Positions 3,786 through 49,131 of a stretch of 64,000 bases of DNA are shown here, piece after piece. The stretch's first letter is position 1; each line of letters begins with the position of its first letter. The position numbers were made by a program, and so were the translations under genes. The notes beneath the pieces are model-generated. The model saw nothing but the letters and a program-made list of their open reading frames with translations. It was not told the origin of the DNA and ran no database searches. The stretch is taken from contig NZ_FNBH01000004.1 of assembly GCF_900102265.1 (NCBI RefSeq), forward strand, positions 186,001-250,000, read 5' to 3'. Source of the stretch: Epilithonimonas hungarica. GTDB lineage: Bacteria > Bacteroidota > Bacteroidia > Flavobacteriales > Weeksellaceae.

Positions 3786-4451
3786 TTATTTGTAATTGAT
3801 TTTTCCCCCAACCACTTTTTTATCGTTTTTGGTTTTTGGATCTCCATAAACATCAATCACGCCGCCGGCCCTGGTTGTGGCTGTAACAGATTCGGAGGCA
3901 TAAACAGAAGCTTGACCGCCTGCGTTGGTTGTGATACTTGTGATATTTGTTTTCAGGTTTTGTCCGTCATATTGTCCACCCGTATTTACAACTACAGATT
4001 GGGAATCTGCTTCACCAGATAGTTTCAATGAACCTCCGGTATTGACTTTTCCTTCAACTACACTTGCATCTACATTCAGATTGATCTGTGAACCTTCATT
4101 AGAGGTTACCTGGAGTTTAGAGGCTTTCAAAGCATCGTTAGAATTAATAACAGCTCCTTGGCTTGCCTGGATATTGTTGATGTTTTTATAATATAGAACC
4201 ACTTTTACATCGTCACCTTGCAGAAGTTTCAGTGTTTTCATTCTTACCTTCAGCTCGTTTCCGGAGTTTACAAATTCTATATCATCTGATTTGGAGCCAC
4301 TTAGTTCCGCTTTGTAAGAAGAGGAGGAAACTAGCTCTACAGGTATTTTATCAAATACCTTCAACGAGGTAAAAGCACCTACATCTTTGGTTTGGGCGAA
4401 TGACAACTGAGACAACAGAAATACAGACGCAGCTACAATTGTATGTTTCAT
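3786..4451 (-). CDS. Secreted DUF2807 (head GIN domain) protein
   Basis: A 221-residue protein with a Sec signal peptide (MKHTIVAASVFLLSQLSFAQ) followed by one DUF2807-type beta-helical domain: 'FTSLKVFDKIPVELV', repeated 'LKVRMKTL', 'LQVTSNEGSQINLNV' and 'VVVNTGGQYDGQNL' strands rich in Asn, Gly and Ser. The family is common in Bacteroidetes and is exported to periplasm or surface; its biochemical role is not established. The gene is alone, convergent with the LacI gene, and transcribed away from the S41 protease gene. Confidence 0.85.
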   Translation of the reverse strand: MKHTIVAASVFLLSQLSFAQTKDVGAFTSLKVFDKIPVELVSSSSYKAELSGSKSDDIEFVNSGNELKVRMKTLKLLQGDDVKVVLYYKNINNIQASQGAVINSNDALKASKLQVTSNEGSQINLNVDASVVEGKVNTGGSLKLSGEADSQSVVVNTGGQYDGQNLKTNITSITTNAGGQASVYASESVTATTRAGGVIDVYGDPKTKNDKKVVGGKINYK

Positions 4452-17607: not shown

Positions 17608-19380
17608 TTATAACAATCCGTGAAGTCTTTCTAAAGGAGAAAAGTTACCGCCGTTATTATTTTCGAGCTCTTTTTTCCTTTTTCGAATGAAGTCTGTAGG
17701 ACGGATACCATTGATCTCATAAAAAAGATCTGAAAAATTTTGTCGAGACGCGATGCCACATTCCTTTGCCAAGGTATCTATGGTGTAATTGAGATAGATG
17801 CTCTTCTCAAACATAAGTCTCGTAATGTATCTGATTCTTAAGTCACCCAGATACTTATTGAAGTTCATTCCTTTTTGCTCATTGATGACGTTGGATAGAT
17901 AATTTGTATTCGTATCCATTTGAATGGCAAGCTTTTGTATTGTAAGACCTTTTTGGGTAAATTGTTTTTTCTCTTCGAAGGATTGCAGTTTTCTTAACAG
18001 GTCTCTTTTTATGGCTGCCGCAATTTGAGTTTTTTTCTCATCCAAAGAGTCAGAGGCTAGAATGGCGACAGGCGAAGTTCTTGTGGTCGTGTTTTCTGAA
18101 CTTACATAGCTGTTATTCTTCATCTTATCTTCCAAAAGAAGATATTTGCTAAGTGTATCTTTTTCCTTTTTGTATTTTTTGTTTAGAATAAAGACGATGA
18201 TACCTCCTGAAATAAATAAAGCGGCAATCAGGAATCCTCCCCAGGTATTTGCAGTTTCTAGCCTTCCTTTTTCTTCTATGAGTGTATTTGTGTCGTATTC
18301 GCGGTGGATCTTCAAAGAAAGATAGGCAAAGTCTCTGGAAATAATACTGTCTGCTTTCAATAACTGTGTTGTATAGAAAAGTTGCTTTTCATGGTCTTTA
18401 TTTATTTTATAATGATTGATGAGCAATTCATAATTTTCTCTCAGTTCGGGAAGTATAAAATCATGTTTTGTAAAAATGGAATCGGTCTTTTTAAAATAAG
18501 AGATTGCTTTTTCTTCATCTTTAAGAGCGAGATAGCTTTTACCAATATAAAAATAATCCAAAGATATCCATGCGAAATCATCCTTGATCAAACCCAAGGA
18601 TTCGTTCAGATAATCAATTGCAGAGGTGTATTTATTATTATTATATTCAGAAAGGCCTTTGCTCTTTAAAAAATAACTTCTTTCCAATAAAAAGTCTTTA
18701 TCATTAAAGGTTTTTAAAAGGCCAATATCTATAAGTGAGTCTGTTTTTTTTGTATCCTTTAGATTCATGTAGCAAATCACCATCTGATGTAAGCTATTGA
18801 TATACCCCTTTTTATTATTGAATCTTTGAGATTCGTGTGATGTTTTGTCGTTGGATTCTGCCTCAAAATAGGACACGCAATTTTTGAAAAGCTCTAAAGC
18901 TTCCTCATGGTAACCTAAATAATTTTTGACAACACCAAGATGGTAAGAAACTTTGTTTTTTAAGTAGAGGTCTCGGGTGTCTTTAGAATATTTGTATGCC
19001 ATCAGATATTCATCCAATGCAGGTTTGTATTTTCTGTAATTGGCGTAGTATACACTCCCTTTCAAGACATAGGCCGTTGCGATCCTGTTATCATTTGAAG
19101 ATTTATATGCGGCATCTAGACAGCTGTCTGCATATTTCAATTTTTTATCCAAAGACTTGGAATAGTAAACAGCATCACGATAACCCTGGAAAAGTTCTAG
19201 GTCTCTTTTTTCTGCTTTTGCATTTTTGATATAGGAATTTAAGTATTGAAAAGCACGACCATCATCTTCAGGAAAAATGCTGTATTTTTTTCTTAATATC
19301 TCATAGTTTTTGGGGCTAGTGTCTTCTGAAAAAACATAGCTGGAAAATAGCAGAAATATGATCAAGAAAAAATTCTTCAT
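17608..19380 (-). CDS. Membrane-spanning TPR-AraC regulator (cassette A)
   Basis: A 590-residue protein with a signal peptide (MKNFFLIIFLLFSSYVFS), a TPR-rich region (about 30-370), one transmembrane helix (GGFLIAALFISGGIIVFIL, 381-399), a linker, and a cytoplasmic AraC-type HTH (about 478-568; TIDTLAKECGIASRQNFSDLF, then NGIRPTDFIRKR). The layout places TPRs in the periplasm and HTH in the cytoplasm, a one-protein transmembrane sensor-regulator. A close paralogue is at 45940-47724; both have DFAW..DYFYIGKSYLA and FILPELRENYELLI. It is divergent from a tiny lipoprotein gene. The ATG at 19413 is rejected because it overlaps the promoter box. Confidence 0.9.
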   Translation of the reverse strand: MKNFFLIIFLLFSSYVFSEDTSPKNYEILRKKYSIFPEDDGRAFQYLNSYIKNAKAEKRDLELFQGYRDAVYYSKSLDKKLKYADSCLDAAYKSSNDNRIATAYVLKGSVYYANYRKYKPALDEYLMAYKYSKDTRDLYLKNKVSYHLGVVKNYLGYHEEALELFKNCVSYFEAESNDKTSHESQRFNNKKGYINSLHQMVICYMNLKDTKKTDSLIDIGLLKTFNDKDFLLERSYFLKSKGLSEYNNNKYTSAIDYLNESLGLIKDDFAWISLDYFYIGKSYLALKDEEKAISYFKKTDSIFTKHDFILPELRENYELLINHYKINKDHEKQLFYTTQLLKADSIISRDFAYLSLKIHREYDTNTLIEEKGRLETANTWGGFLIAALFISGGIIVFILNKKYKKEKDTLSKYLLLEDKMKNNSYVSSENTTTRTSPVAILASDSLDEKKTQIAAAIKRDLLRKLQSFEEKKQFTQKGLTIQKLAIQMDTNTNYLSNVINEQKGMNFNKYLGDLRIRYITRLMFEKSIYLNYTIDTLAKECGIASRQNFSDLFYEINGIRPTDFIRKRKKELENNNGGNFSPLERLHGLL

Positions 19381-19410
19381 TATAATAATTATCTCAATCA
19401 TTTGTGTCCT

Positions 19411-19418
19411 CAAAAATA
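19411..19418 (-). promoter_or_regulatory. -7 box for the cassette A regulator
   Basis: On the minus strand the sequence is TATTTTTG, 30 nt before the chosen ATG at 19380. Confidence 0.55.
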
Positions 19419-19521: not shown

Positions 19522-19543
19522 GTCCTTATTTATGAATTAGGAC
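19522..19543. promoter_or_regulatory. 22-bp inverted repeat, candidate operator A
   Basis: GTCCT and AGGAC arms enclose TATTTATGAATT, which is itself partly symmetric. Sixteen of 22 positions match the repeat at 47892-47913 in the same position of cassette B. It lies between the divergent regulator and small lipoprotein genes, about 65 bp upstream of the latter's likely transcription start. Confidence 0.6.
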
Positions 19544-19597
19544 GTCAAGATTTCCAAATCGAGACCATATATATTTTTATAAACGGCCTTTTGCGCA

Positions 19598-19673: not shown

Positions 19674-19907
19674 ATGAAAAAATTTATTTCCATTTTAGCG
19701 ATTGCTGTTATTACTACAAGCTTCATTTCTTGCCGACAAGAAGACGAGACCGCTGACATACAAGAGAATGTTACACAACAAAATATAAATCTTAGAAAAA
19801 CAGGCGATTCTGCGCAGGTAGGCACGGCTACTAATGCTACAACTTCTGCAGCTGCTGCACCAGAATTAGATCCGGATCCACCAGTGAGAGATGGAACTAG
19901 ATGGTAG
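19674..19907 (+). CDS. Small lipoprotein or peptide precursor (cassette A)
   Basis: The 77-residue product has a lipoprotein-type signal (MKKFISILAIAVITTSFISC, Cys 20 as acylation site), then RQEDETAD, a Gln/Asn/Thr/Ala-rich disordered middle, and the C-terminus DPDPPVRDGTRW. Cassette B has a 73-residue equivalent with SCREND and DPPPKNGHQW, also ending in Trp before the stop. Apart from these two ends the sequences have diverged, which suggests that signal and tail are the functional parts. I do not recognise a known family. It is the obvious candidate ligand or partner of the divergent TPR regulator. That role is inferred from context. Confidence 0.75.
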   Translation: MKKFISILAIAVITTSFISCRQEDETADIQENVTQQNINLRKTGDSAQVGTATNATTSAAAAPELDPDPPVRDGTRW

Positions 19908-20092: not shown

Positions 20093-20923
20093 ATGAAAAC
20101 GATATATTTCTTAATTTTTGGTTTGTTATTTATCAATATCAAGTCACAGATTGGAATAAATACACAGAAACCTTTAGCTAATCTAGAGGTACATAAATCT
20201 TCACTGCTCACAATTCCAGACGGTATTATACCGCCGAGAACTACAGCAGACTCACTTAAAATGAAAGATCAGCTCTATGGTCCACCCCAAAACGGTGCAT
20301 TTATCCATATTGTTGCCCCACTAGCTTCACCTGCGTCCCCCAAAACTCAGAATATGACAAGTTCTGGTTACTATATCTATGATGCACATTATACGCATGC
20401 AGATAAAAATACGAAAGGGCTTTGGAAAAAAATGTTCAGCGATCCTAGTGCTTTTGCCGCAAAGGGAGTGTCTGGATTATCATTGGTAAGTTCGGGGACG
20501 GAATTTTTGGGTTCTGATTTTAAGATTCTTCAATTCAATGCCCAGTTGGAACAAGAGATGGGGCAGGAATTCGTAAAAGATAACCAATATGTAGTTCCAG
20601 AAACTGGACTTTATGCCATTAACTATTCTCTTAGATTCGGAGATGGACTGACCAAAGATGTTCCAGCTTCTGCAAAGCCTGGTCTGGCGATTTCCAGAAC
20701 TTCAGATGCCGGGAAGGTACCTACATTATTAGATCATGTTTTATTAGCAAATGGTACAATTCCTGTCATCGCAACCAAAGTTTCTTTAACAGAAGGTCGT
20801 ATTGATCATATTTATAATCTGAAAACGGGTGAAAAACTTAATTTCGGCGTTGTAACAGGTGGTATGGATCTTTCGGTTTTAGGAGATATTTCTACAGAGA
20901 TTTCAATTTATAAAATAAGATAA
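20093..20923 (+). CDS. Secreted C1q-like protein (cassette A)
   Basis: A 276-residue protein with a signal peptide (MKTIYFLIFGLLFINIKSQ), then IGINTQKPLANLEVHKS, the N-terminal pattern common in flavobacterial surface proteins. The C-terminal half looks like a C1q/TNF-type jelly roll: YVVPETGLYAINYSLRFGDGL, then LNFGVVTGGMDLSVLGDISTEISIYKIR. No T9SS sorting domain is seen. Cassette B carries a protein of the same plan. The role may be as a surface or secreted effector of the divergent regulator. Confidence 0.75.
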   Translation: MKTIYFLIFGLLFINIKSQIGINTQKPLANLEVHKSSLLTIPDGIIPPRTTADSLKMKDQLYGPPQNGAFIHIVAPLASPASPKTQNMTSSGYYIYDAHYTHADKNTKGLWKKMFSDPSAFAAKGVSGLSLVSSGTEFLGSDFKILQFNAQLEQEMGQEFVKDNQYVVPETGLYAINYSLRFGDGLTKDVPASAKPGLAISRTSDAGKVPTLLDHVLLANGTIPVIATKVSLTEGRIDHIYNLKTGEKLNFGVVTGGMDLSVLGDISTEISIYKIR

Positions 20924-44292: not shown

Positions 44293-45375
44293 ATGGAAAA
44301 TTTCATCGTATCTGCACGCAAGTACCGTCCGCAAGAGTTTGACACTGTTGTTGGACAATCTCACGTTACCGATACTTTGGAACACGCTATCGACGAAAGC
44401 CAACTTGCCCAGGCATTGCTTTTCTGCGGACCAAGAGGTGTGGGTAAAACCACTTGTGCCAGAATCTTAGCGAGAAAGATCAATGAAAAATCCGGCGCTG
44501 CGGATGATGATGGATTTGCATTTAACATTTATGAATTAGATGCGGCTTCCAACAACTCTGTGGATGACATCAGAGAATTGATAGACCAGGTTAGGTTTGC
44601 GCCTCAGGTCGGAAAATATAAAGTTTATATTATCGATGAGGTTCATATGTTGTCTCAGGCTGCTTTCAATGCTTTCCTGAAAACTTTGGAAGAACCGCCG
44701 GCACATGCAATCTTCATCCTTGCGACGACTGAGAAACACAAAATCATTCCAACAATTCTTTCCAGATGTCAAATCTATGATTTCAAAAGAATCACGATAG
44801 AAGATATTCAGGAGCATCTTAGAAAAATTGCTGAAAAGGAAAGTATCACCTACGAAGATGATGCGTTGTACTTAATTGCCCAAAAAGCTGATGGCGCATT
44901 GAGAGATGCTTTATCAATTTTTGATAGGTTGAGCACATTTTCTCAAAAGAATATTACTCTAGAAAAAGCTGCAGAAGTTCTCAATATTTTGGATTATGAC
45001 CAATATCTGAAAATTGTCGATTTAGCAAAAGAAAACGATATTCCTGGTGTTTTAACGACTTTTGATGAAATTGTTAAAAAAGGATTTGACCCACATATTT
45101 TCATTGCTGGATTAGGGAATCATTTCCGCGACCTTATGATGGCCCAGAATCCTAAAACTTTGAACTTGATTGAAGTTGGTGAAAGAACGAAATCCAAATT
45201 CGCTGAACAATCTCAAAAATGGTCAGCTCAACAATTGATTGACGGAATCGAGATTTGTAATTTTGCTGACATCAATTATAAAAATTCCAAAAATCCAAGA
45301 TTGACTGTTGAGATTGCATTGATGCAATTATCAAGTCTCACTGCAGGTTTGGAAGCTAAAAAAAAAAGTTCTTAA
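44293..45375 (+). CDS. dnaX: DNA polymerase III gamma-like subunit (zero-frame dnaX product)
   Basis: The 360-residue zero-frame product is a clamp-loader AAA+ ATPase: RPQEFDTVVGQSHVTDTL, Walker A GPRGVGKTTCARIL, ELDAASNNSVDDIRELI, Walker B YIIDEVHMLS, and sensor-1 ILATTEKHKIIPTILSRCQ. The four-Cys zinc module between Walker A and DAASNN is replaced by NEKSGAADDDGFAFN, as I recall for other flavobacteria. The frame ends two codons after a run of ten A, while the -1 frame stays open for another 208 codons, so this is likely the short form of a recoded gene. Confidence 0.95.
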   Translation: MENFIVSARKYRPQEFDTVVGQSHVTDTLEHAIDESQLAQALLFCGPRGVGKTTCARILARKINEKSGAADDDGFAFNIYELDAASNNSVDDIRELIDQVRFAPQVGKYKVYIIDEVHMLSQAAFNAFLKTLEEPPAHAIFILATTEKHKIIPTILSRCQIYDFKRITIEDIQEHLRKIAEKESITYEDDALYLIAQKADGALRDALSIFDRLSTFSQKNITLEKAAEVLNILDYDQYLKIVDLAKENDIPGVLTTFDEIVKKGFDPHIFIAGLGNHFRDLMMAQNPKTLNLIEVGERTKSKFAEQSQKWSAQQLIDGIEICNFADINYKNSKNPRLTVEIALMQLSSLTAGLEAKKKSS

Positions 45376-45401
45376 TATTAGCCCCGCTTCTTGAAGCTAA
45401 T
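45358..45401 (+). promoter_or_regulatory. A10 slippery run and downstream stem-loop (dnaX recoding site)
   Basis: GCT is followed by ten A (45358-45367), then GTTC. In the zero frame the A AAA AAA heptamer is followed by AGT TCT TAA. About 10 nt downstream, ATTA/TAAT (45377-45401) and GCTTC-TT-GAAGC (45386-45397) can form a stem-loop, the usual layout for -1 frameshifting. Confidence 0.65.
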
Positions 45402-45992
45402 TTAATTTCCGATAATAAACCTGTTTCTACCGAAACAAAAGTTCAGGCTGAGCCAAAACCAGAGCCTGCAAAATCTATTTTTGAAGAACCAAAGAAGGTG
45501 ATTCAAAAAGCTTCTGAGCCGATTGCTAAAACTAATTCTGGTTCCAAATTCAGTATAAAAGCAGCTTTAGAAAAGAAAGAAGAGATAGAAAAGGACAAAT
45601 TTGCGGAAGTTAAAGATGAGAATCTTCCTTCCAATCATTTTTCACAAACGGACATTGATAGAGAATGGGGGATTTTTCTAAAGAATATTGCTAAAACCAA
45701 TACTTTGGCGTATAATGCAATCAATACTTTTAAATTAGAAAAATCAGACGAACATCAGATCACTGTCAAATATTCTTCCGAAACAGCAAAAGGAGAGTTT
45801 GACAGATTAAGCCCCGAATTCTTTAACCATTTCAAACACAAGGTCAACAACTTCAAGATTGAAATAGAATATCAAACGGATCTGTCTATTAAAAAAGAAG
45901 TGATGACCAAACGGAAAATATTCGAAAAATTTGTAGAGATCAATCCTCTTTTGAAAGATTTAGACGACTTGATGAGGTTTGATTTGACATAA
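45366..45992 (+). CDS. dnaX: dnaX tau-like C-terminal extension, read in the -1 frame
   Basis: Reading from AAG at 45366 in the -1 frame is open for 208 codons: a hydrophobic entry (KFLILAPLLEA), a Pro/Glu/Lys-rich linker, and a globular part (DIDREWGIFLKNIAKTNTLAYNAINTF, then ETAKGEFDRLSPEFFNHFK) ending LLKDLDDLMRFDLT. It has no ATG and no sensible start of its own (GTG 45498 falls inside the linker). The full product would be about 566 residues. It would be expected to contact DnaE or DnaB as tau does. A sequencing indel in the A run is the alternative. The last 53 bp overlap the convergent regulator gene. Confidence 0.8.
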   Translation, partial: KFLILAPLLEANLISDNKPVSTETKVQAEPKPEPAKSIFEEPKKVIQKASEPIAKTNSGSKFSIKAALEKKEEIEKDKFAEVKDENLPSNHFSQTDIDREWGIFLKNIAKTNTLAYNAINTFKLEKSDEHQITVKYSSETAKGEFDRLSPEFFNHFKHKVNNFKIEIEYQTDLSIKKEVMTKRKIFEKFVEINPLLKDLDDLMRFDLT

Positions 45993-47724
45993 GCTGAATC
46001 TTATTAAATTTTGGGAAATTCCTGCAATTTATTTTCATATCCTGTTGTCTTTTTTTAATAAAGTCAGTAGGTCTTATTCCATTGATCTCCATAAAGAGAT
46101 TAGAAAAATTGGTTCTAGAAGCAATACCACATTTCTCGGCTAAAGTTTCTATTTTGTAGTTGAGAAAAACCTTGTCATTATATAACTTATTGGTAATATA
46201 GTTAATGCGAAGTTCTCCGAGGTACCTGTTGAAATTAACACCTTTATATTCATTGATTATTTGCGAAAGATAAGTTGAATTGGTATTTAATTTATTTGCT
46301 AGTTTATTGATAGTCAGCCCGTACTCAATAAAACCGTGCCTTTCCTCAAAACTTTGTAATTTTTTAAGGATGTTGTTTACCATTGTTTCATTTAATACGG
46401 ATTTGTCCTCATCTTTTATTTTTGTAATAGATCGTGTAGATGGCAGATATGAATAATTGATAATCTTTTCCTCTAGGATCTTATAGTTCAACTTGATTTT
46501 CTGCTCGTTTTTGAGTCTTATTATAATACATGTTACAAGGCTAATTGCTAATATGATCAATCCTGCAATGATCTGTATTCCCCAGGAGGTCACTTTTTCT
46601 AATTTTTCCTTTTCATCAAGTAATGTTTTTGTGTCATACTCTTTGTGGATAGTTGAAGAAAGGTATGCGAAATCTTTTGAAATAAGCTGGTCTGCTCTCA
46701 GGAGTTGTTTGGTGTAATATAATTCTTTTGAGTTATTTTTTTCATTTTTATAATGATAAATAAGTAATTCGTAGTTCTCTCTTAATTCCGGAAGAATAAA
46801 ATTATGTTTGTTGAAAACAGAATCTACTTTTTGAAAATAAAGTAATGCTTTCTGAGGTTTATTAATAGCTAAATATGACTTGCCGATATAAAAATAATCT
46901 ACTGTTGCCCATGCAAAATCATTGATCTTCACAATTGGAGGTAAGGATTTTTTTAATGAAGCCAATGCACTTTGATAGTCTTTCTTCCGAAATTCCGAAA
47001 TTCCTTTTTCTTTTAAGAAATATCCATATTCCTGAGAAAAATCTCTGTCATTCTTTGTTCGCAGCAAACCCGTTATTATTAGGGAATCAACAGAATTATA
47101 TCTTTTCAGATTTCTTTGACATACTATTATTCTGTGCAAGGTGTTGTAATATCCTTTTTTGTTGTTAAAGATTATATTAGGGTGAGCTTTTTCCTGTAAT
47201 TTTTTAAAGAAAAAACTATTCGCTTTTTGAAAGTGTGCCAATGCAGAATCATAATATCCCAGATGGCTCTTCACAACTCCAAGATGATAGAGAATCTCAT
47301 TTTTCAGATAATCATCCTTTGAGTCTTTGGAGTATTGATAAGCTTTTAGATATTCCTCAAGTGCAGGTTTGTATTTTTTATAATTGAAATAATAGATGAC
47401 CCCCTTCCCAAGATAAGCATCACTGATCAGATCATTGTTCTTGGTCAATAGACTTGCCATGATCGTGCTGTCGGCATATATTAATTTCTGCTTTTCTGAA
47501 GAGGAATAAAATACAGCATCTTCGTAGCCTTGTGCCAATTGTTTATTGTTGTTTTCTTTTTTTGCAAGATATATGTAATTATTGAGGTATTTGAAAGCTC
47601 GAACATCATTTTCCGGATAATTTTCATAATTCTTTTTGATATTGTAGTAATTACTGAATTCTTCTTTTTGAGAATAGTATATCCCAAAAAAGAAGCATGT
47701 TATTAAAAAACAAACTTTTTTCAT
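45940..47724 (-). CDS. Membrane-spanning TPR-AraC regulator (cassette B)
   Basis: The 594-residue paralogue of the 17608-19380 gene has a signal peptide (MKKVCFLITCFFFGIYYSQ), TPR units (YKPALEEYLKAYQYSKDS; YDSALAHFQKANSFF; PQKALLYFQKVDSVF), a transmembrane helix (IIAGLIILAISLVTCIII, about 385-403) and a C-terminal AraC HTH (ETLAEKCGIASRTNFSNLF; NGIRPTDFIKKR). It shares long identical stretches with copy A, for example FILPELRENYELLI. Its last 16 or so residues come from antisense to the dnaX end and have no counterpart in copy A, suggesting loss of an earlier stop. Confidence 0.9.
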   Translation of the reverse strand: MKKVCFLITCFFFGIYYSQKEEFSNYYNIKKNYENYPENDVRAFKYLNNYIYLAKKENNNKQLAQGYEDAVFYSSSEKQKLIYADSTIMASLLTKNNDLISDAYLGKGVIYYFNYKKYKPALEEYLKAYQYSKDSKDDYLKNEILYHLGVVKSHLGYYDSALAHFQKANSFFFKKLQEKAHPNIIFNNKKGYYNTLHRIIVCQRNLKRYNSVDSLIITGLLRTKNDRDFSQEYGYFLKEKGISEFRKKDYQSALASLKKSLPPIVKINDFAWATVDYFYIGKSYLAINKPQKALLYFQKVDSVFNKHNFILPELRENYELLIYHYKNEKNNSKELYYTKQLLRADQLISKDFAYLSSTIHKEYDTKTLLDEKEKLEKVTSWGIQIIAGLIILAISLVTCIIIRLKNEQKIKLNYKILEEKIINYSYLPSTRSITKIKDEDKSVLNETMVNNILKKLQSFEERHGFIEYGLTINKLANKLNTNSTYLSQIINEYKGVNFNRYLGELRINYITNKLYNDKVFLNYKIETLAEKCGIASRTNFSNLFMEINGIRPTDFIKKRQQDMKINCRNFPKFNKIQLMSNQTSSSRLNLSKED

Positions 47725-47891
47725 CTTGTCGAGTGTTTATGGGGATTAATTTTCTGTATTAAACTAACTAAAATTATGCTAAAAAAACGGAAGAAAGGTT
47801 TTTCATTTCTTTAAATAAAATAAAATAATTGCTGTATTTATTTACATATAAATCAATTGATTAAGTATTGTCAATCATATTAATTAATGCG

Positions 47892-47913
47892 TGCTTATTC
47901 CTAAATAAGCACA
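47892..47913. promoter_or_regulatory. 22-bp inverted repeat, candidate operator B
   Basis: GTGCTTATT, CCTA, AATAAGCAC: perfect 9-bp arms, 90 bp before the small lipoprotein gene. It matches 16 of 22 positions of the repeat at 19522-19543. Confidence 0.65.
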
Positions 47914-48003
47914 ACGATGGTTTTTATGCTTGCATATTGTCACCTAAATTCGGTGTCAGAATTCTAATATAAACCGGCCGGGATAACCTTTAAATCTAAA
48001 ATT

Positions 48004-48225
48004 ATGAATAAGATTATCTCAACAATTTCAATTTTAATAGTTATGGTCACAATGCACTCTTGTAGAGAAAATGATGTTGACCTTCCAGCAGAAAACAGCA
48101 ACATGTCAGAAAACAGTTCTGTTTTTCAAAGAACTAATGATAGTATACAAGCACCAGATAGTTTGGATCTCGCAAACCAGCCATTGCCTGGAGATCCACC
48201 TCCTAAGAATGGGCACCAATGGTAA
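48004..48225 (+). CDS. Small lipoprotein or peptide precursor (cassette B)
   Basis: The 73-residue product has a lipoprotein-type signal (MNKIISTISILIVMVTMHSC), RENDVDLPAE, an Asn/Ser/Asp-rich middle, and the C-terminus PLPGDPPPKNGHQW before the stop. It is equivalent in size, position and both ends to the cassette A protein at 19674, although the middle is not alignable. No known family recognised. The divergent TPR-AraC gene is the likely partner. Confidence 0.75.
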   Translation: MNKIISTISILIVMVTMHSCRENDVDLPAENSNMSENSSVFQRTNDSIQAPDSLDLANQPLPGDPPPKNGHQW

Positions 48226-48231
48226 AAACGA

Positions 48232-48266
48232 GTTATAATCATATCTGATGATTTTTATGATATAAC
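48232..48266 (+). other. Stem-loop between the two + genes of cassette B
   Basis: GTTATAATCATA / TATGATATAAC arms with one bulge, just after the small lipoprotein stop and without a T-run. It occupies the same place as the 19961-19992 hairpin of cassette A. Confidence 0.45.
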
Positions 48267-48402
48267 TAAAAAATCAACAGATAAAAATACCAATTATAAT
48301 AAAGAACCAATGAGTCCCGGAATATTTAAGTTCTGTGATCCGATTTAACAACTATAGAGACTTTATTTTTTGCCTTTAAAATAACTTTTTAACTCATATG
48401 AC

Positions 48403-49131
48403 ATGGAAAATAGAATTCGCATATTCGTGATTTCATTATTATCGAATATCATATTTGCACAAGTAGGGATTAATACAAGTGATCCCAAAGCTACATTGGA
48501 CATCAATGGAAATCTGAAAATTCGGGATGTGACCAATATACCTTCAGTAAGTAGCAATCATACTTTTTTGGTAAGAGATAAGACGACTACAACCGGAGAC
48601 TATGAAATAAAAGAAATTAATTCTGATATTTTGGTAACCGGTAATGCTAATGCGTATTATGCTTCAAAAAGCGGCTCTTGGTCACTTTTGAATCTAGCAA
48701 TCGGAGGTTCTTGGTATAAGATCAATTTAACGGGAGCAACCGATACCAAATTAGGAAATACGGCTTTGTTCAACAGTGGCGTATATACGGCTCCCCAAGC
48801 AGGGATATATGCAATTAACTACGAATTCCAATTAGCTTCTGGTGTAGATATAGAAATATTGGGAGGTAAGAAATTAGGAATATTAAAGAATAATGTGGTG
48901 TGGGATGAGAAACTTTTTGATGCGGTAAGGGTTGCTATAGATGTGCCTTTAGTTCTTACTCTTACACTTGCTGCACTTCCTGTTACATCAACCTCTCTCA
49001 ATTCTTTGGTGCAGCTTGGTGTTGGAGATACGATTACATTTGCCGTTAATACTTCAGGAGTTTTACCAGCTAATTTAGGGGTTTTGACCAATGCCAAGGT
49101 GAATGTCTATATTTATAAAATCTCCAATTAA
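48403..49131 (+). CDS. Secreted C1q-like protein (cassette B)
   Basis: A 242-residue protein with signal peptide (MENRIRIFVISLLSNIIFAQ), then VGINTSDPKATLDINGNLKIRD, the same N-terminal surface-protein pattern as in cassette A, and a C1q-like C-terminal region (GVYTAPQAGIYAINYEFQLAS, ending AKVNVYIYKISN; cassette A ends TEISIYKIR). No T9SS sorting domain. It is followed by a terminator, closing the cassette. Confidence 0.75.
   Translation: MENRIRIFVISLLSNIIFAQVGINTSDPKATLDINGNLKIRDVTNIPSVSSNHTFLVRDKTTTTGDYEIKEINSDILVTGNANAYYASKSGSWSLLNLAIGGSWYKINLTGATDTKLGNTALFNSGVYTAPQAGIYAINYEFQLASGVDIEILGGKKLGILKNNVVWDEKLFDAVRVAIDVPLVLTLTLAALPVTSTSLNSLVQLGVGDTITFAVNTSGVLPANLGVLTNAKVNVYIYKISN

Follow-up and report, generated by a model that had tools for sequence, protein, structure and literature searches.

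A stretch of 64,000 nucleotides from Epilithonimonas hungarica (Weeksellaceae; contig NZ_FNBH01000004.1, positions 186,001 to 250,000; hereafter the window) contains two cassettes, A and B, each built around a divergently oriented gene pair that encodes an AraC-type regulator with a tetratricopeptide repeat (TPR) solenoid and a small lipoprotein ending in a conserved tail. It is reasonably probable that such a pair constitutes a self-contained ligand-receptor switch, in which the tail would be the ligand of a periplasmic TPR domain. This is the simplest explanation for the combination of a predicted shared compartment, a mature lipoprotein in which strong constraint is confined to the tail, a tail that varies by clade and in some cases occurs twice, and a candidate regulatory site at the promoter of the partner gene.

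Results

Cassette B (positions 45940-49131) matches cassette A (17.6-20.9 kb) in gene order, orientation and spacing, just as an original prediction, made from the letters of the window, had described it. The conserved regulator and diverging small partner of that prediction agree with the alignments, in which the regulators share 52% identity across residues 4-573 (51% in the multiple alignment) and the small proteins 28%, with signal peptide and tail in common; the third genes of the cassettes are 23% identical. Further copies in the 3.96 Mb genome, also anticipated, came to one more pair, three in all.

The small lipoprotein gene of cassette B (48004-48225, plus strand, 73 amino acids (aa)) was delimited by open reading frame (ORF), alignment and pN/pS, the ratio of the proportions of nonsynonymous and synonymous differences. 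By inspection, its product has a lipoprotein-type signal peptide with the lipobox MHSC, a weakly constrained middle and the C-terminal tail DPPPKNGHQW (48193-48222), our candidate ligand; the counterpart in cassette A (19674-19907, plus strand, 77 aa) ends with DPDPPVRDGTRW at 19869-19904. In 53 proteins of the genus the length is 65-85 aa, and Cys20, Pro66 and Trp73 are invariant across the 53 aligned rows; in Chryseobacterium some two-tailed proteins exceed 100 aa. With a whole-protein pN/pS of 0.43 in 12 A-type and 0.46 in five B-type orthologs, the small ORFs have the character of genuine genes. Constraint is concentrated in the tail (pN/pS 0.11 and 0.09, respectively, vs 0.58 and 0.52 in the middle), and among 281 pairs of proteins with closely related regulators mean similarity was 0.78 in the tail, 0.63 in the signal peptide and 0.30 in the middle. 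Specificity had originally been sought in this middle, which its drift rules out as the carrier; it is the tail that is both constrained and clade-specific.

The tail comprises the C-terminal 9-12 residues with a consensus of roughly D-P-P-x5-6-W. Among 100 unique proteins (101 less one without the motif) Trp is the last residue in 34, L111 being counted there by its second Trp, and the remaining 66 extend beyond it, with Lys or Arg next in 63. Two tails in one lipoprotein occur at seven of 80 named loci, these being the best 80 of 143 confirmed when a single genome of each species was scanned; the seven are six listed cases and L208, and the apparent second tails of L092, L198 and L111 proved to be spurious matches. 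The residues one and two positions before Trp follow the regulator tree, requiring 19 and 20 changes vs means of 62 and 56 after shuffling (99 sequences, 500 shuffles), and tail distance is correlated with TPR distance (Mantel rho 0.36, a value reached by none of 500 permutations). Regulator and lipoprotein thus share a history.

Regulator B (45940-47724, minus strand, 594 aa), defined by ORF, Pfam and AlphaFold2, consists of a signal peptide (helix at residues 2-19), a TPR solenoid at about 41-345, a long helix at 331-423 and an AraC-type helix-turn-helix (HTH) domain at 446-567; one transmembrane (TM) segment, at about 380-402 within the long helix, was read from the sequence. Since a signal peptide precedes the TM helix and basic residues follow it, the TPR solenoid should face the periplasm. 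Pfam gave HTH_18 (2.2e-8) and TPR_2 (2.7e-8). The HTH is of the AraC type, HTH_18 scoring above the cut-off in B and just under it in A and solved AraC domains matching the C-terminus. An AlphaFold2 model based on 81 sequences has a mean predicted local distance difference test (pLDDT) score of 87.8. Regulator A lies at 17608-19413 on the minus strand, with an ATG start likely at 19380. The 64 longest of 71 copies from the genus measure 557-605 aa, the shorter ones being broken or cut.

Upstream of small gene B, and in the same orientation, lies the palindrome GTGCTTATT-CCT-AAATAAGCAC (47891-47912), a candidate operator of regulator B, which at up to two mismatches is the single such site of the genome. 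The B-type palindrome GTGCTTATTnnnAAATAAGCAC is near-identical in all six B-type loci examined, with a variant right arm in L069. Its A-type equivalent, GTCCTTATTTATGAATTAGGAC (19522-19543, plus strand), candidate operator of regulator A with a related site behind it at 19549-19565, differs from it; in an alignment of 19 loci the right half is at least 90% conserved and the left half variable. Other clades have further palindromes, not equally clear, at about the same place. Located 32 bp past palindrome B, TAAATTCG (47945-47952, plus strand) resembles in sequence the -7 element of Bacteroidota, whose consensus is TAnnTTTG, and similar elements appear in the intergenic alignments of other clades. 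Between it and the start codon follows a leader element, CAGAATTCTAAT..CCGGCCGGGATAA (47957-47986, plus strand), recognised by its conservation in B and several clades and not seen in the intergenic alignments of A-type loci; it has one exact match in the genome, and its palindrome centre varies by clade (CCGGCCGG, CCGGCGCCGG, CCGACGTCGG, CCGGTACCGG). No Rfam match was obtained between 45900 and 49600 up to an E-value of 1.

A search of the genome with regulator B yielded 18 TPR-AraC matches at E<=1e-5, only three of which reach about 50% identity, namely A, B itself and the third copy (contig C3:71,921-73,597), which has its own divergent lipoprotein bearing DPPVKHGGHW near its end and, downstream of it, a different gene of 463 aa without Pfam match. 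A profile of the small protein (E<=0.001) retrieved three full-length genes and two partial matches, the latter confined to the first 27-48 positions of larger proteins. The other 15 TPR-AraC regulators match regulator B across the HTH and a portion of the TPRs, but a six-frame scan of 14 stretches of 11-18 kb revealed no tail-bearing signal-peptide protein beside them, its one match being spurious and devoid of a credible signal peptide.

All 23 Epilithonimonas genomes contain a close regulator, with 71 loci including the three described above, and at 58 of these there is a divergently encoded lipoprotein that bears the tail or an evident variant. This number combines the 53 alignment rows with five loci added by reading (L090, L092, L096, L110, L128); four of 57 automatic picks (L092, L125, L128, L129) had been excluded from the alignment. 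The 13 misses include L125, whose lipoprotein has a tail that has diverged, and L063, where the contig ends and the partner is located on another one (L271). From lipoprotein start to regulator start the distance is 251-497 bp in the 53 automatically found loci and 250-340 bp in 51 of them. A-type copies, assigned like B-type copies by tree, tail and neighbours, occur in 19 of the 23 genomes and B-type copies in 10, and the same neighbour gene adjoins them in 18/19 (17 by pattern, L120 by reading) and 9/10 loci (eight, and one on the split contig L271), respectively. With such conserved neighbours in other species A and B are old paralogs, and a recent local duplication is ruled out. At locus B the nearest named relative is Epilithonimonas caeni, with 93% identity; its strain DSM 17710 contains close counterparts of both A and B.

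Across the family, 238 of 296 genomes, which represent 18 of the 33 genera, contain the regulator according to a search in which the partner was looked at in a minority of cases and copies per genome are lower bounds, as at most four candidates were scored in each. At 66 of the 80 named loci the partner was present; this count includes L187 and L198, recovered afterwards, and scores as misses L185, at a contig start, and L189, with an apparently frameshifted small gene. Regulator and small gene, whose independent joining would have spoken against the original prediction, occur together across the family. In a sample of the order 15 of 79 genomes held a regulator at E<=1e-60, eight of them belonging to the family itself; at 17 such loci (10 outside the family, seven more distant ones inside it) no Trp-tailed small lipoprotein was found. 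At four of the loci from outside the family, L281-L284, the gene divergent from the regulator instead encodes a lipoprotein-like protein of 229-246 aa that lacks the tail. Divergent lipoproteins by more distant TPR-AraC regulators in L273 (3923-4135) and L297, the latter one of the 17 loci, end with PIPPPRR or, in L297, VPPPRK, a second tail type. Plasmid carriage was considered and rejected, as only 7 of 72,556 plasmid records match and a single one, from Bergeyella porcorum (40% identity), does so over 80% or more of the query. In L272 a small gene (3790-3990) and a MauE-type gene occur with no regulator, and the identity of this small protein to that of L078, from another species, suggests transfer.

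The third gene of cassette B (48403-49131, plus strand, 242 aa) has no Pfam family above the cut-off. On a low-confidence AlphaFold2 model (mean pLDDT 68.9) its secreted product is predicted to adopt a C1q/TNF-like jelly roll, the best Foldseek matches being C1q, TNF-family and BclA domains at E-values of about 1e-5; the third gene of cassette A (20093-20923, plus strand, 276 aa) belongs to the same family. All 19 A-type loci have the small gene, and in seven of them the C1q-like gene is absent; in other clades it is replaced, and downstream genes vary from C1q-like, MauE membrane and HTTM/DoxX genes to genes for radical S-adenosylmethionine (SAM) enzymes, outer-membrane barrels and an ATP-binding cassette (ABC) transporter. 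These losses and replacements rule out the three-gene module of the original prediction, and the core unit is the two genes of regulator and divergent lipoprotein, with variable cargo behind them. Downstream of the lipoprotein in L299 (1787), L304 (1740), L156, L168, L175 and L186 there is also a second small conserved protein of about 55 aa (SG-x-WE..SKG..MPxYCG..W), which precedes the MauE-type gene where the latter was seen.

Adjoining cassette B, a dnaX-like gene (44293-45992) is divided into two frames, split at a run of ten A followed by G (45358-45368). The same run and split in E. caeni (L130) suggest programmed slippage, which is known for dnaX elsewhere.

Discussion

In the model that we propose, the lipoprotein encoded by the small gene would be exported by Sec, with its last 9-12 residues serving as signal. 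The TPR solenoid would bind this tail in the periplasm, the compartment the lipoprotein crosses, and the single TM helix would relay binding to the AraC domain on the cytoplasmic side. This domain may sit on the palindrome just upstream of the small-gene promoter, in which case the pair would control its own ligand and the downstream cargo; with tails and palindromes differing by clade, several copies could run in parallel. Activation, and with it a feed-forward loop, appears likelier than repression, and proteolytic cleavage that frees the tail in the form of a short peptide likelier than its retention.

The closest parallel is found in the propeptides of the RRNPPA systems of Firmicutes (Rap-Phr, NprR-NprX, PlcR-PapR), in which likewise a TPR receptor gene adjoins the gene of a small protein, exported there and predicted to be exported here, with a conserved C-terminal peptide, several paralogous pairs exist per genome, some propeptides contain tandem peptide repeats and the TPR solenoid is similar. 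Rap/Phr propeptides are described with 1-4 repeats in the available part of PMC11343458, and divergence of propeptides by intragenic duplication in that of PMC5199041. The TPR part of the regulator matches RapF and RapJ by sequence (E-values of 1e-6 to 2e-4), and its best structural counterparts include APPBP2 with a degron (Z 24.9, root-mean-square deviation (rmsd) 3.8, 317 aligned residues), NprR-NprX (Z 22.8, rmsd 4.8, 302 aligned) and Rap-pheromone (Z 22.6, rmsd 4.9, 314 aligned).

In the sections available of PMC10075063, RRNPPA systems are delimited by a propeptide of 10-100 aa, Sec export, a receptor of 250-500 aa, peptide-binding TPRs, adjacent genes and cytoplasmic binding after re-import. 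The lipoproteins, with 65-85 aa, fall within the propeptide range and are direct neighbours of the regulator at the 58 of 71 loci mentioned, but the receptors, with 557-605 aa, exceed the given size, and the predicted topology of signal peptide and TM helix argues against re-import and cytoplasmic binding. On account of receptor size and predicted location the pair is not a member of RRNPPA, from which it further differs in the C-terminal AraC HTH, the lipoprotein nature of the partner and the Gram-negative host. By analogy it may nevertheless work like a TPR-peptide signalling pair that is differently built. The RRNPP survey, according to the portion of PMC10075063 at hand, covered complete Firmicutes genomes only, and a term search found Bacteroidetes unmentioned in PMC9765709 and PMC12700828. 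No description of this regulator-lipoprotein pair was found in literature listings whose scope left out preprints and many subscription papers. ToxR/CadC-type regulators, one-component proteins that span the membrane, similarly unite a periplasmic sensor, one TM helix and a cytoplasmic DNA-binding domain in a single chain; here, however, the domain order is reversed, with an N-terminal sensor behind a signal peptide and the AraC HTH at the C-terminus, the sensor is made of TPRs and a dedicated lipoprotein is associated.

Several observations weigh against a ligand-receptor switch. LGN and many other TPR proteins are tied with or close behind the structural matches named above, so that the structure search provides a fitting fold and no function. 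The covariation of the small protein with the TPR face that the original prediction offered for testing did not emerge: tail distance tracks the HTH (rho 0.51) better than the TPRs, the partial correlation with the TPRs given the HTH is 0.01, and for the middle region the values are 0.38 and, as a partial correlation, 0.13; there is hence no signal of tail-TPR coevolution beyond ancestry. The lipid anchor argues for tethering of the tail. Furthermore, in the B-type loci L067, L068 (where the regulator is incomplete) and L093 the regulator is kept and the small gene was not found, and a clade of 11 Chryseobacterium regulators without local lipoprotein (L148, L151, L152, L153, L160-L163, L167, L169, L174) retains throughout 13 of the 14 polar residues conserved in the TPRs, the 14th being changed in the partnered sister clade as well; mean TPR deviation is 0.033 in this clade vs 0.035 in its sister. 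A partner elsewhere in those genomes was considered and rejected, as the small gene gave 16 matches, spread over 10 genomes, of which 15 adjoin a regulator of their own and the 16th (L307) shows neither tail nor regulator; the 11 are possibly unpartnered receptors. Partnerless L117, L118 and L123 have changes at 6 of the 16 polar TPR positions that are otherwise conserved, with K55, S86, N187 and E232 altered in each of them, vs 0-1 of 15 in the about equally diverged, partnered L128, L127 and L119, a comparison that is post hoc, involves few lineages with overlapping groups and is suggestive only. The overlap is evident from partnered L107 (4 of 18) and L112-L115 (3 of 18) on the one side and partnerless L116 (0 of 16), L125 and L093 (2) and L122 (3) on the other.

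A wider version of the switch, which we regard as tentative, would have Weeksellaceae possess a peptide signalling of their own, in which lipoproteins shed Trp-ended peptides that TPR-TM-AraC receptors read from the periplasm, with a private channel for each clade, several per genome, and unpartnered receptors listening. Considerably less likely than the switch proposed above is that the lipoprotein remains anchored and works as a sentinel reporting on how it is itself trafficked, in the manner of NlpE and RcsF of E. coli, or as a brake that keeps the regulator inactive through feedback. In that case the tail would still dock on the TPRs, with neither release nor a signal between cells. The lipobox-like Cys kept throughout the partner alignment is in accordance with this, and so are the acidic residues, at least two at positions +2 to +7 in 76 of 101 unique lipoproteins, which loosely recall the surface-export signals of Bacteroidetes lipoproteins as far as treated in the accessible part of PMC5080379, so that sensing could be directed at the state of export. 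However, the lipoproteins deviate from the C-X-K-(D/E)2 pattern that the same partial source gives for Capnocytophaga, two tails per protein and the boundary of Trp with Lys or Arg are not readily explained, and the clade-specific tails are left without explanation, for a sensor of trafficking could be uniform.

It is improbable that the lipoprotein is a regulated product only, be it a precursor of a peptide natural product, a small surface protein or a cargo anchor, and that the TPRs sense something else. Radical SAM enzymes are encoded downstream at L081 and L094, where the peptide might be their substrate, and the retention of TPR residues in the 11 partnerless regulators would fit as well; yet the neighbouring genes read around A and B include none for a radical SAM enzyme, the small gene is kept in the seven A-type loci without C1q-like gene and beside many unrelated cargos, and tail identity tracks the regulator tree. 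An ordinary local TPR-AraC regulator of the adjacent surface protein, next to a spurious or unimportant small ORF, is hardly credible in view of the purifying selection on the small gene, its invariant Cys, Pro and Trp and the conserved upstream region, even though the 15 distant paralogs lack such a partner and in five stretches with distant paralogs (L020-L024) each regulator neighbours a protein with a C-terminus that we take to be type IX-like.

If the tail is the ligand, as the switch would have it, Bacteroidota would gain a genetically encoded and sequence-readable family of signals and receptors with dozens of natural pairs on which specificity could be tried. The combination of a TPR receptor and an exported peptide would then also exist in the Gram-negative envelope, where the peptide would be read in the periplasm without re-import, and the differences in tail, receptor and palindrome between clades would offer a test set for the insulation of parallel signalling channels.

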